DNA from: Arabidopsis thaliana
Lineage: Eukaryota > Streptophyta > Magnoliopsida > Brassicales > Brassicaceae
Direction of reading: 5' to 3'
NCBI RefSeq assembly: GCF_000001735.4
Contig: NC_003074.8
Location: 62,101 to 126,100 of the forward strand
DNA length: 64,000 bases
The notes under the pieces were generated by a model. That model had not been told where the DNA came from. It ran no database searches and saw only the letters and a list, made by a program, of their open reading frames with translations. Below, in pieces: positions 5,136 through 51,097 of this stretch; positions within the stretch are counted from its first letter, which is position 1; every line of letters starts with the position of its first letter. The position numbers and the translations under genes were made by a program.

Positions 5136-6377
<1,242 letters not shown>

Positions 6378-7725
6378 TTTCTTAAAAAATCTTTAGTTTG
6401 TTGCTCTTAGCTTTTGTTTTTTGCTCGATTGATAATGAATTGTTGATGAAGGTTGAAGCTATTTTATACTCAATTATGTAAGTAGTTTAAACTAACTTGC
6501 AATATTATAAGAGTTTGTGGTTAGAAGATTGAGATTAATTAACATCAAAATGTAGTTGACTATCATTGGTCTGCGGTGGAATGCTTGTTGTATTTTTGTT
6601 GTTCTTAAGACCAATCATTGTTTGTAGAAATAAGAAGAGGCAAATTGATACAAGTCGTACTATATATATGTGTATATAATATTTGTGTCGATGTTGTCTT
6701 ATGCATGGTGTATATTGCTACCACCAAAAAAAATGGCTGCCTAAATTTCTTTAAGCCCAAATTAAATACAAATGGGGTTTTAAGAATTGAAAATTTCGTG
6801 TGTCTCACGTCACTAAGACACCTCTAGTTCCTCTACTTAACAAGAAAAAGACATATAGAGTTCGGATATAGTTAAAACAATGTATTTTGTATTACTTGCC
6901 TTATAGAGTGGGACAATACTTTGCCAACAACAGTTGGAAGAATAACTTAAATTAAAATTAAGTTTTTATCTTATCAAGTAGATTAAAATATCTACATATA
7001 TGCATATCAATTGATACTTGGACGTTATCGATAACAATTATTTGATCCCACATGCATCCATGCATTATAGGTTTCCTGTAATGTTTCGTGCATGTTCTTC
7101 CAATTACGTCAATCATTTGACCGCAACGTTTTAACCTTTTCTAAACTACGCCATGTGTTACCAATTAGCATCTTATTAATCATGTGGATGAACAGATTGA
7201 ATAGCAATAATCATCCACATAAATTGACAGTCGAAAAAACCTTGCATGTTTCCAGGTTCATCGTTTACTTACAGGAAGAAAATATCACTAATTAGTTATA
7301 TAAATCGAAGATGGACACAAATCTCTGATCATCTACTTTGGATAATCAGAAGATTTTTTGGTAATTACCGAAATATTCATTCATAAACGAATAGAAAGAG
7401 TCAAAATAGATTAACTAAAATGACATTAAGTTTTGGATGACTTTTCTTGAACTTGCTAAACACACCCAAATTGCAACGTTGCAACTAAATGCTAATGACA
7501 GATATTCTTTTGTTTTATAGACTAGTAATAAAAGAATTCAGAGTAGCCACAATTATTAGTTTTCGTTATCCTTCATCCTCTTACATTCGTTGACTAAAAC
7601 ATATGATTCATCATGCCTCGGTTGGATTTGTTATTCAACTTATTATTATAGACATATATTACTTTATTCACTTGATACTTTATCGACACTGGTGTTTCAT
7701 CCTCTCTACGGTCAAAGGAGTGTGC
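6378..7725. other. Intergenic (PRX27 promoter side; RP2 3' side)
   Basis: About 1.3 kb of AT-rich sequence upstream of the peroxidase and downstream of RP2. No coding sequence with family character, no tRNA and no clear terminal repeats were seen. Confidence 0.55.
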
Positions 7726-40942: not shown

Positions 40943-42187
40943 TCAATTGAAAAAAATTAGGAATGCATAAACAATATTTTGATTATAGATAATGGTAACA
41001 ATGAAGAAGGAGGTAAGTTTAGTACCGCAAGAAGAAGGAAAGACGATGATGTGCATAGTTGCGTTGTTAGGAGGAAGATGCAATTGAAGAGGACAAAGCT
41101 TTTCGTTCAAAGGATTTCTACACCAAATCATAACATCTTCCATCTCTGTTTCTTCCTCAAGCTTCTTCTTTAGTTCTATCAACTCGCTTCCATGGAATAT
41201 CAATGATTTTTCTCCTATTTCCTTATTTATGTTCCCACTATCATCTCCGGTCTCGTAATATATTAGCCTTCCTTCGGACTTGAGTGGTAAACTCACAATA
41301 AACGAATCATCTGACTGATCATGTATCGATGAATGTTTAGTACTAGTATTTTCAGAAGAATGGTATTGGCACGTATGTGTAGTGTATATAGTAGTAGTAC
41401 CTCAATCCGTGAAAAAGTGGAAGAACTGTGGGTAGACTCTGCATCATCTTTGATAACTCGAATCTGAAGAACGTCAACAGTCCACATGACCCAATCTTGT
41501 GTGACCGTACGACTAGGAATATCGTGTGTGATAGAGTTTCTCCACGGTGGTACACCTTTGTTTGCCCTCAGATATTGTCCGTAGCGACTCTTGAACCGTA
41601 CGTGTACACCATCGTCTGATAGCGGCTCCCACTCCGCAGATGAATCCAACTTTTCGGGTAGAGTTTGAAGTACCTTGTGAATATGAAACACACACGGCTT
41701 GTTTAGCAAGAAACATTTCCACGTTTAAAAAAATTCTGTTTATGCGTTTTTGTTTGCGCTATAGTCATAAGAATGGGTTTTCTCGTTGTTAAACATTTGA
41801 AATATCTCTTGGGCAAGATTTACTTTGTCAAAGTGTTTATAAATGTTATCAATGGATTTGGATGCCTTGTTTTTCAAGAAATTTATTGAAAAAGAATCCT
41901 AATTTTGATTTGAGATGGTTTCTTGTAACCCAATCTCCCCTAGATAAACCTACCTTTTCGCCGGTGGCTCCAAGGAGGAAATGAATATTAGTGGCGGTAA
42001 GGTATTTGCCGTAACAGCTTTGAAGACGGATCACATTGGATCCAGGTACGATCTCAACCGTCCATCTAGTGTTTTTTGTTGTGCCGCGACGATCTTGATG
42101 AACGGATTCTTGATCTTCATCGGCACTTAGGTATTTGTCGTTGTGGCTACGGAGACGTACAATCGTTGCCTTTCTAAATATCTCCAT
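40943..42187 (-). CDS. DUF569 / actin-crosslinking-like beta-trefoil protein
   Basis: Three exons: 42187-41954, 41673-41401, 41314-40943 (phase 0 joints after 78 and 91 codons). Two copies of a trefoil-type module are seen. First: MEIFRKATIVRLRSHNDKYLSADEDQ to SCYGKYLTATN. Then WEPLSDDGVHVRFKSRYGQYLRANKG. These are typical of plant DUF569 proteins with a fascin/actin-crosslinking-like fold. The C-terminal domain contains LPPNNATMHIIVFPSS. The last about 20 residues beyond SSCGT are lysine-poor and hydrophobic and could instead be intron or UTR, so the stop at 40943 is the least certain part. Biochemical role unknown. Confidence 0.8.
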
Positions 42188-42581: not shown

Positions 42582-42673
42582 CTTCTGCTCAGATATATGA
42601 ATTTATTCTCATAGATTACAAGAATCTCTGAAGTCTGACATGTGAATTTCTCATAAAATCATCACCGCAGAAG
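42582..42673 (-). ncRNA. Box C/D snoRNA candidate 3, snR58-like guide to 25S rRNA
   Basis: On the minus strand a perfect 7-bp terminal stem (CTTCTGC with GCAGAAG) closes box C GTGATGA and box D CTGA, 92 nt in all. An internal D'-like CAGA (about 42627-42630) is preceded by CACATGTCAGACTT. This is complementary to AGTCTGACATGTG as I remember it in plant 25S rRNA. The base five nucleotides before D' pairs with the C of GUC, the position equivalent to yeast 25S C663, the snR58 target. The cluster context supports the call. rRNA complementarity is from memory. Confidence 0.82.
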
Positions 42674-42731
42674 AAGAAATTATCCAAAACGAAATTTGAA
42701 GGAAAATACTAAAAAATCGAAAGAAAAGAAG

Positions 42732-42812
42732 AGAGATCAGAGTTTGGTTAAGAATTTTTTCGGTCACGGTTAATCTGAAACACGGACCAATTTGTTGATC
42801 ATCATATCTCTC
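42732..42812 (-). ncRNA. Box C/D snoRNA candidate 2, U18 homologue
   Basis: On the minus strand a terminal stem GAGAGA/TCTCTC encloses box C ATGATGA and box D CTGA, 81 nt in all. Inside, TTGGTCCGTGTT precedes a D'-like CAGA. It is complementary to AACACGGACCAA of 25S rRNA, the universally conserved segment holding yeast A649/C650, which U18 methylates. By the +5 rule the paired base is that C, and the neighbour is the A. This strongly suggests a U18 snoRNA. Confidence 0.85.
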
Positions 42813-42877
42813 GTTTCAAACAAAACAATCAAAACAGAAGAAAATCAAATCGAAAAAGATCTAGTTGAAAACGATTA

Positions 42878-42957
42878 AGATCATCAGAGACTTAAATACT
42901 AATAATCACAAAGATTACTCCATCATATTGTTGCAGTATTACCTCATCACCTGATCT
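42878..42957 (-). ncRNA. Box C/D snoRNA candidate 1, target not identified
   Basis: On the minus strand a stem AGATCA/TGATCT closes box C GTGATGA and box D CTGA, 80 nt in all. An internal C'-like ATGATGG and a weak D' (CTGC) are present. The guide region before D is TTAGTATTTAAGTCT, and before D' it is GAGGTAATA. I cannot place either on rRNA or snRNA from memory. Structure, length and position in a row with two better-supported snoRNAs favour a real gene. Confidence 0.7.
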
Positions 42958-43108
42958 CAATTTTGCATTATCTATACGGACCAATACATCATAACTCGAA
43001 AACCAAAGATCTAAAGAAAACTAAACTGAAGATAAAATACGAACTTGAACAGAGAACCCTAAACTGACTTGATAAGAGCTTGATGTCTGTCAAAGTCATG
43101 TGTGGTTT

Positions 43109-43222
43109 GTATATAAAGGTCCCCAATGGCGGCGATTCTTAGGTTTCTCGAGGAAAACCCTAACGCTTATGGGTCGTATATGAGCTTCATAAGGCCCATT
43201 ATAATAAACCTCTTTTGACCCA
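43109..43222 (-). promoter_or_regulatory. snoRNA-type promoter: site II, telo-box, TATA
   Basis: Read on the minus strand, in order: TGGGTC (43217-43222), TGGGCC (43193-43198), the telo-box as TTAGGGTTT (AAACCCTAA at 43155-43163) and TTTATATAC (43109-43117). About 150 bases later the first snoRNA begins. Telo-box plus site II is the known signature of Arabidopsis snoRNA and ribosome-biogenesis promoters. It could also influence the plus-strand gene at 43688. Confidence 0.7.
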
Positions 43223-43687
43223 TAAAAACCCCAAACCAATACTCAATTAGCTTATATGGATGGGCTTGACTGAAAATTTACAACTTCTCATTTTTGGTTT
43301 GATTCAAGAAAAAACAAAATATTAATTTTAAAAAAAAATATGTACTTGGAACAAAATAATTTGTAAGAAAATCTACATCTATTTAAGGCTTGAAGTCATT
43401 GGATCCTATTTTAATGGAAGACAAGATCAAAATTTATATCCTTTTTTTGGGGAGTAGATATAAACTTTTAAGCTTAATTTAGCATGTTTTGTAGTAAATC
43501 CAAAACTGGATAAAATCTAATTTCAAACTCAACTAATTCTGTTCATTTTATCTTTAAACAAGTTCAAACACTTGAAACAATAGCTTCATACATACGCAAA
43601 AGAAACAAACACACAACAAAATTGATAGAATAAAATAAGTTTGGTATTAAAGAAGATATAATCGTAACAAGATTCAAAACTTAAGTA
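43223..43687. other. Intergenic, divergent
   Basis: Promoter and leader of the plus-strand small gene at 43688. AT-rich; nothing else is recognised. Confidence 0.45.
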
Positions 43688-44008
43688 ATGACATCGCTAC
43701 AAAGATCAGCTGTTTCGTTCCGACGTCAAGGTTCTTCGGGTCGTATTTGGAGTGATCAATTCATCTTAGATCAAAAAAATGGAGCAATTCTTCAAAATCA
43801 TCTAGAACAAACCGGAAGAAATAGTAATGATCTTGAAGATAAAAATCCATCACAGAAATCAAGTTCTTCGTCATCTTCTTCATCACCACCTCCATACTTT
43901 TCTGAAATACGTAGAGGACCAGACATCTCATCTTCTACACGAAACAAACTCGCTTGTGGTTTATCATCACTTTTCCGACAATGTATCGGTTCTTCGGCTC
44001 GTGCTTAA
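43688..44008 (+). CDS. Small MAPK-substrate-like protein (MASS / At1g80180-type family)
   Basis: Single exon, 106 aa. The N-terminus MTSLQRSAVSFRRQGSSGRIWSDQ is the hallmark of a small plant family annotated as MAPK kinase substrate proteins, with MASS1-3 in the stomatal lineage. A poly-Ser run leads into SSPPPYF, a possible Ser-Pro phosphosite. A basic/Ser-rich stretch follows, and the end LACGLSSLFRQCIGSSARA resembles the family's cysteine-containing tail. It has no signal peptide or membrane segment. Family placement is from memory of the N-terminal motif; the partner kinase is unknown. Confidence 0.72.
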   Translation: MTSLQRSAVSFRRQGSSGRIWSDQFILDQKNGAILQNHLEQTGRNSNDLEDKNPSQKSSSSSSSSSPPPYFSEIRRGPDISSSTRNKLACGLSSLFRQCIGSSARA

Positions 44009-44629
44009 TTTTGTTCAATGCTTGACGCAAATCTGTACATATATTTTCTTGTTATATGAAAAATTCATCACAATTTTTTCCGACCAAACAGAGTTCTTGA
44101 TAAATGGGCCTATTATTTTAAAAAGCCCAATAGATATTTGAGTGTCCGGCCCAAATTGAAGTAGAATAAAAGATAAGTTACCAATTTACCAGTAGTTAGC
44201 AGCAAACACACAGAGAAAGTGAAACATCGAAGAGACCCCAGAATGCAAAATCTCTCTCCGCCTTTTTCTCCTTCCTTATTCGAAAATTCTCAGCGTCTTT
44301 GTTGCAAACTCCTCTGAAATTCTCCGTCTTCTTCATTCGTTTTCGACTCTGCGTTCTACTACTTCTCGTCTCCTATCAGTATCATCGCAATTCATATTCA
44401 GTCTAGTGTGTTAAACCGGAGAATTTGGAGTCTCGCCGGAATTTTCCTCTGTCTATGTATGATTGCCGGTGATCAAAGCGCTTCTTAACGATTCTGTTCT
44501 CCTTTGAGAGATCTGAGTATCTGATTTCATCTACTACATATGTTTTCTCGAGAGTGATAGAAAGTAGGTCTCATACATATTTTTCCTCTGGAGGGAATTT
44601 TGATCCTCTGCTTCGTTAATTAACTTGTG
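44009..44629. other. SNL1 promoter and leader
   Basis: The spacer includes GGGCC-type site II-like motifs (near 44103-44152) and a long CT-rich leader (44240-44480) before the SNL1 ATG. No other gene. Confidence 0.55.

Positions 44630-51097
<6,468 letters not shown>

Follow-up and report, generated by a model that had tools for sequence, protein, structure and literature searches.

The minus strand of the window studied here (i.e., the whole analysed stretch of 64,000 nucleotides (nt) of Arabidopsis thaliana DNA, on C3) carries an ordinary plant gene cluster for small nucleolar RNAs (snoRNAs), made up of three box C/D units of the SnoR13, U18 and SnoR58Y types (C3 104,682-105,057). A preliminary description, made from the letters alone, had proposed a minus-strand box C/D cluster with U18- and snR58-type guides, and Rfam, the anatomy of the units and Table 1 of PMC8053127 all agree with it. 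In all probability the cluster works through an RNA polymerase II (Pol II) precursor that is cut into three snoRNAs, which guide fibrillarin to named bases of ribosomal RNA (rRNA). The locus is of small weight as a gene cluster, because published work already covers the families, the sites they target and the kind of promoter; it illustrates cleanly how, once a snoRNA cluster has been duplicated, spacers drift while units and guides are preserved. The point of interest is whether such clusters gather guides for neighbouring bases beyond expectation, an arrangement seen twice in the sister cluster on C5 (18S 599/615 and 25S 661/675).

All three units have boxes C and D near their ends and a closing stem, of 6, 6 and 8 pairs in units 1 to 3 by script count. 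A descriptor consisting of RTGATGA, CTGA and a stem of at least 6 pairs, which was drafted with the units already known yet built on the general box consensus, found exactly three matches on both strands of the window, namely the three units, and thereby recovered the positions and stems of the three consecutive units described earlier. Box C lies at 42950, 42805 and 42665 in units 1, 2 and 3, and box D at 42887, 42740 and 42592. In unit 1 the stem is AGATCA/TGATCT and box D' is ATGA (42926); in unit 2 they are GAGAGA/TCTCTC and CAGA (42777). By Rfam bounds, the spacers measure 59 nt (units 2-3) and 68 nt.

Two units score above the curated Rfam cut-offs and unit 2 slightly below. Unit 1 passes the gathering cut-off of RF00200 (snoZ199) at 79.6 bits (cut-off, 47) and unit 3 that of RF00267 (snoR64) at 99.1 bits (cut-off, 45). 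Unit 2 we call U18 because it is 88% identical to, and has the same guide as, the C5 copy, which passes the SNORD18 cut-off at 42.1 bits; its alignment to the SNORD18 model contains an insertion following the guide. Units 2 and 3 do carry the guides reported for them in the preliminary description, and unit 1, for which none had been given, carries guides too, of the SnoR13 type.

Because the ribosomal DNA (rDNA) of this assembly is masked (8261 of 8501 and 7501 of 7501 bases are N, and the one Rfam match there is a 5S), the assignment of targets rests on the guide words, on short segments of 18S and 25S rRNA taken from outside the assembly (external segments), and on Table 1 of PMC8053127. 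That table attributes A661 to U18, for which it lists a single site, C675 to SnoR58Y, and both 18S U615 and 25S U3301 to SnoR13. The bases at +5 (U and U in unit 1, A in unit 2, C in unit 3) are those published for SnoR13, U18 and SnoR58Y; in unit 3, the guides adjoining D' (42630) and D (42592) give C and A. The anatomy script also lists further D-like words, and the ones used are those adjoining the conserved guides. Pairing to the external segments is exact over 10 nt of 18S rRNA for unit 1 (-15.1 kcal/mol) and over 13 nt of 25S rRNA for units 2 and 3 (-20.6 and -22.9 kcal/mol, respectively). The guide words given for the latter two are present in the units, their 25S side being matched on the external segment only. 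When this 25S segment is anchored at A661, C falls at 675 and U at 676; when the 18S segment is anchored at G599 (the U54 site), positions 604 and 615 are U and position 623 is A, each of them a site in Table 1 (PMC8053127). A 23-nt rRNA word has no match in the genome at up to one mismatch. For a 16-nt word of 25S rRNA, the unmasked part of the genome contains a single exact match, on the minus strand of C5 at 20,464,511-20,464,526.

Published work refines the earlier proposal that U18 addresses the equivalents of yeast A649 and C650 and that the second guide acts about 13 nt away. The first equivalent, A661, stands, whereas the site at position 6 of yeast U18 is reported to be unmethylated in Arabidopsis (PMC8053127, section 14); the two 25S sites are indeed neighbours, but A661 and C675 are 14 nt apart, and 13 nt is the distance counted from the yeast-type second U18 site. 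According to the same section, SnoR58Y also directs U676, and in a mutant without SnoR58Y.2, the less abundant variant, C675 and U676 are slightly but significantly lower. PMC8351944 assigns U18-1 and U18-2 to Am660, one number off. Whereas Rfam places unit 3 in the snoR64 family, its D'-side guide fits SnoR58Y, a clash of names; the SnoR64 of Table 1 in PMC8053127 has its site at 25S U2884.

The sequence upstream of unit 1 has the composition of a plant snoRNA promoter. A motif scan returned two site II motifs (at 43266 and 43198), a telo-box (43162) and a TATA-like element (43115), in the order previously described, such that telo-box and site II lie upstream of both the TATA-like element and the first unit. 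Of the nine telo-boxes of the window, that at 43162 alone lies no more than 200 bases from a site II motif, and the window's telo-box list contains no other less than 15 kb away. PMC3022908 and PMC4660826 describe such a combination as characteristic of the promoters of plant snoRNAs, the former associating telo-boxes with site II or TEF1 boxes in 34 of 40 non-intronic Arabidopsis snoRNA loci. The TATA-like word is weak on its own, because the two strands of the window hold 192 and 184 such words.

Since the units are closely spaced, have a single telo-box/site II promoter and conform to published plant practice (clusters being transcribed to a precursor and then processed, according to the introduction of PMC8053127), we infer that one precursor is made and cut; the C3 copy is presumably in use. 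The promoter, of the telo-box/site II kind that also belongs to ribosome-making genes, would most likely have Pol II start a short way below the TATA-like element and yield one precursor. Cleavage would then occur in the T-rich spacers, with box C/D proteins protecting each unit. Each snoRNA would pair through the guide adjoining box D', and unit 1 additionally through that adjoining box D, whereupon fibrillarin would methylate the rRNA nucleotide that faces the fifth guide position counted from the box, namely 18S U615 and 25S U3301 for unit 1, 25S A661 for unit 2, and 25S C675, along with U676 by the +6 variant, for unit 3. In this scheme, our analysis supplies the units with their boxes, stems and guide words, the matches to families, the synteny and the promoter words, whereas the methylated bases and the names of the guides come from print.

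Coordinates of the cluster, its promoter words, its neighbours and its C5 counterpart (window positions unless marked C5)
Feature	Position	Strand	Basis and remarks
Site II motif, RGCCCA orientation	43261..43266	-	310 nt upstream of unit 1; motif scan
Site II motif TGGGCC	43193..43198	-	242 nt upstream of unit 1; motif scan
Telo-box TAGGGTTT	43155..43162	-	206 nt upstream of unit 1; motif scan
TATA-like element TATATA	43110..43115	-	159 nt upstream of unit 1; motif scan
Unit 1, box C/D snoRNA, family snoZ199, SnoR13 type	42878..42957	-	Rfam RF00200, anatomy, C5 copy
Unit 1 D' guide word, 10 nt	42928..42937	-	+5 base U; fits published 18S U615 (SnoR13); rRNA word from the external segment
Unit 1 D guide	42888..42899	-	+5 base U; fits published 25S U3301 (SnoR13), compared by base alone
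Unit 2, U18 (SNORD18) box C/D snoRNA	42731..42812	-	Rfam RF00093, anatomy, C5 copy
Unit 2 D' guide, 13 nt	42778..42790	-	+5 base A: 25S A661; Table 1 of PMC8053127; rRNA word from the external segment
Unit 3, box C/D snoRNA, Rfam snoR64 family, SnoR58Y type	42582..42673	-	Rfam RF00267, anatomy, C5 copy
Unit 3 D' guide, 13 nt	42632..42644	-	+5 base C: 25S C675; U676 by published +6 rule; rRNA word from the external segment
DUF569 open reading frames	41,293-41,709 and 41,849-42,187	-	flank the cluster on one side
DUF4666 open reading frame	43,688-44,008	+	flanks the cluster on the other side
PAH-repeat open reading frame	44,846-45,922	+	same side as the DUF4666 frame; presumably SIN3-like
C5 sister cluster: snoZ199, U18, U54, snoR64 in order	C5 4,866,315-4,866,815		Rfam scan

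The cluster has a sister on another chromosome, C5. Because the flanks match colinearly on both sides (window 36.2-39.8 kb to C5 4,881.0-4,876.5 kb, and 44.6-51.1 kb to 4,865.6-4,859.4 kb), the two clusters are syntenic duplicates, and they most likely go back to the last whole-genome duplication. In unit-by-unit alignments, which give identities with no shuffled control, the copies agree at 91% of positions in unit 1 (72/79 columns), 88% in unit 2 (69/78) and 85% in unit 3 (82/96), and outside the units at 58% in spacer 1-2 (43/74) and 52% in the leader (77/149). On the D' side the guides are letter-identical in every unit, as is the D guide of unit 1, and box C of unit 1 reads GTGATGA on C3 and TTGATGA on C5. 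Upstream of the C5 cluster, three site II motifs are followed by a telo-box and then by TATA-like words, the order seen on C3. For U54, the 59 nt that separate units 2 and 3 gave no Rfam match, and among the best candidates of a genome-wide family search it was located on C5 only. A MAFFT alignment of the whole clusters, which paired unit 3 of C3 with the U54 of C5, was dropped.

Genome-wide family searches score the best candidates only, so that copy numbers are lower bounds: at least three matches for snoR64 (two strong, one weaker), at least two for SNORD18, at least one for U54, and at least three for snoZ199 (two strong, one sub-threshold), to which a scan of C5 alone adds a weak copy of 38.6 bits. 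These numbers fit the published names, in that Table 1 of PMC8053127 marks several variants for U18, SnoR13 and SnoR58Y (the last having two, according to section 14), and not for U54.

Several observations weigh against our account. Unit 2 scores 38.9 bits against a cut-off of 41 and thus falls 2.1 bits short (E = 1.4e-05 over 901 bases), such that by Rfam's own rule it fails the gathering cut-off of RF00093 (SNORD18) and is not a member; its D' box is CAGA on C3 vs. CTGA on C5. The pairing of guides was checked solely on short external rRNA segments, the genome's rDNA being N; unit 1 has the shortest exact match (10 nt, in 18S rRNA, vs. 13 nt for units 2 and 3), and its assignment to 25S U3301 is an agreement at the +5 base only.

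Some of these features would be expected if the units were genuine but the C3 copy were a decaying, unexpressed duplicate, the C5 cluster doing the work. C5 does hold decayed copies of these families, the U54 is absent from C3, and, besides its altered D' box, unit 2 scores a little below its C5 twin, as does unit 1 (79.6 vs. 84.7 bits). Yet on C3 every box C, box D and stem is intact and the guides are unchanged, the units have stayed 85-91% identical while spacer 1-2 and the leader dropped to little more than half, the telo-box, site II and TATA-like words are retained, and unit 3 scores slightly above its twin (99.1 vs. 97.1 bits), all of which makes decay very improbable. That each unit is instead transcribed from its own promoter, with no common precursor, would have precedent in box C/D genes of that kind which are known in other organisms; but the spacers measure only 59 and 68 nt, a scan of 500 bases ahead of unit 1 shows one telo-box with an adjoining site II motif, the next telo-box being more than 15 kb off, and plant clusters are described in PMC8053127 as processed from precursors, so that we regard separate promoters as highly improbable. 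Boxes C and D are short words that could fall into such an arrangement by chance; this explanation is already refuted, and its probability negligible, given that 100 dinucleotide shuffles of the window produced 0.03 descriptor matches per shuffle (maximum, 1) and given two Rfam matches with E values of 1e-20 and 5e-13 over the whole window. A genuine cluster processed from a common precursor is the reading that we retain.

A separate question is whether the make-up of the ancestral cluster was non-random, with guides for neighbouring rRNA bases gathered so that they arrive jointly at one stretch of pre-rRNA. The C5 cluster contains two such pairs: U54 with the SnoR13 type, whose targets 18S G599 and U615 are separated by 16 nt, and U18 with the SnoR58Y type, whose targets 25S A661 and C675 are separated by 14 nt and whose guide duplexes lie two bases from one another on the external 25S segment. 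C3 has retained the 25S pair and is missing U54. We ran a permutation on Table 1 of PMC8053127, excluding the two 5.8S sites (hence SnoR9) as well as 25S U2922 and G2923, where there is no snoRNA guide, and assigning U803 to SnoR14 in keeping with the table (the text names SnoR30). Among 87 guides, 58 of 3741 pairs aim at sites at most 16 nt apart, a limit that was chosen post hoc with the case already known. Two or more such pairs occurred in 292 of 100,000 random sets of four guides, and one or more in 4,512 of 100,000 sets of three (i.e., the C3 form). Across ten clusters (nine taken from excerpts of PMC8053127 and PMC5122169, the latter mostly rice and its list used in part, together with the C5 four-guide form), such pairs occurred only in the C5 form, which has two; 0.36 pairs were expected, and the chance of at least two is 0.048. 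This test excluded U36 (one guide type), snoR167-snoR47 (no Table 1 site), and SnoR4 and SnoR5 of the HID2 clusters. The excess of guides with neighbouring targets is thus mild, post hoc and not established, and a non-random make-up of the ancestral cluster seems unlikely to us.

Two stretches of the U18 unit (42731-42812; L010 2462-2538) are identical on C3 and C5: AACCAAACT, right before box D, and GATTAACCGTGAC, past D'. The word ATTGGTCCGT occurs on the minus strand at 42976-42985, 29 nt upstream of unit 1, and elsewhere on both strands of the window only in unit 2. A U18 relic in the leader was considered and rejected: The local score of this U18-like stretch is reached by 9 of 1000 leader shuffles, and by 28 of 1774 windows of the real sequence (three overlapping unit 2 on its own strand and one being the leader itself), so that the alignment does not exceed the real background and only the shared word is left.

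Downstream of the C5 cluster lie decayed partial copies of snoZ199 and snoR64 (L010 5263-5345, 5503-5587 and 7185-7285; C5 4,869,263-4,871,285), with a U18-like stretch among them at C5 4,870,951-4,871,012. In two of the decayed copies, at 5263 (snoZ199 type) and at 7185 (snoR64 type, in comparison with C3), the letters facing box D differ from CTGA. Among and beside these copies, three stretches within C5 4,866,961-4,870,235 match the 5' part of the gene that we take to be SIN3-like (window 44,462-45,286) at 61-63% identity, as if a C5 block comprising the start of this gene and the cluster had been repeated and had then decayed.

The literature already describes the families, their targets, this type of promoter and the tendency of such genes to cluster, so the cluster is not new in kind and most likely not new as a locus either. 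The passages returned by our literature search, which reached main texts and not supplements, do not name the exact C3 cluster; they come from PMC4660826, PMC9175010, PMC7464842, PMC3022908, PMC5122169, PMC11542601, PMC7671301 and PMC2780460.

The C3 units correspond closely to known systems. Their guide types and +5 bases fit the sites published for Arabidopsis U18, SnoR58Y and SnoR13 (A661, C675, and 18S U615 with 25S U3301; PMC8053127), and their matches to the Rfam models of the three families run from the first to the last model position. With the C5 sister cluster they share the snoZ199/U18/snoR64 order, the guide words, the upstream telo-box and site II motifs, and the colinear flanks; unlike the C3 cluster, that on C5 holds a U54 between its U18 and snoR64 units and is followed by decayed partial copies.
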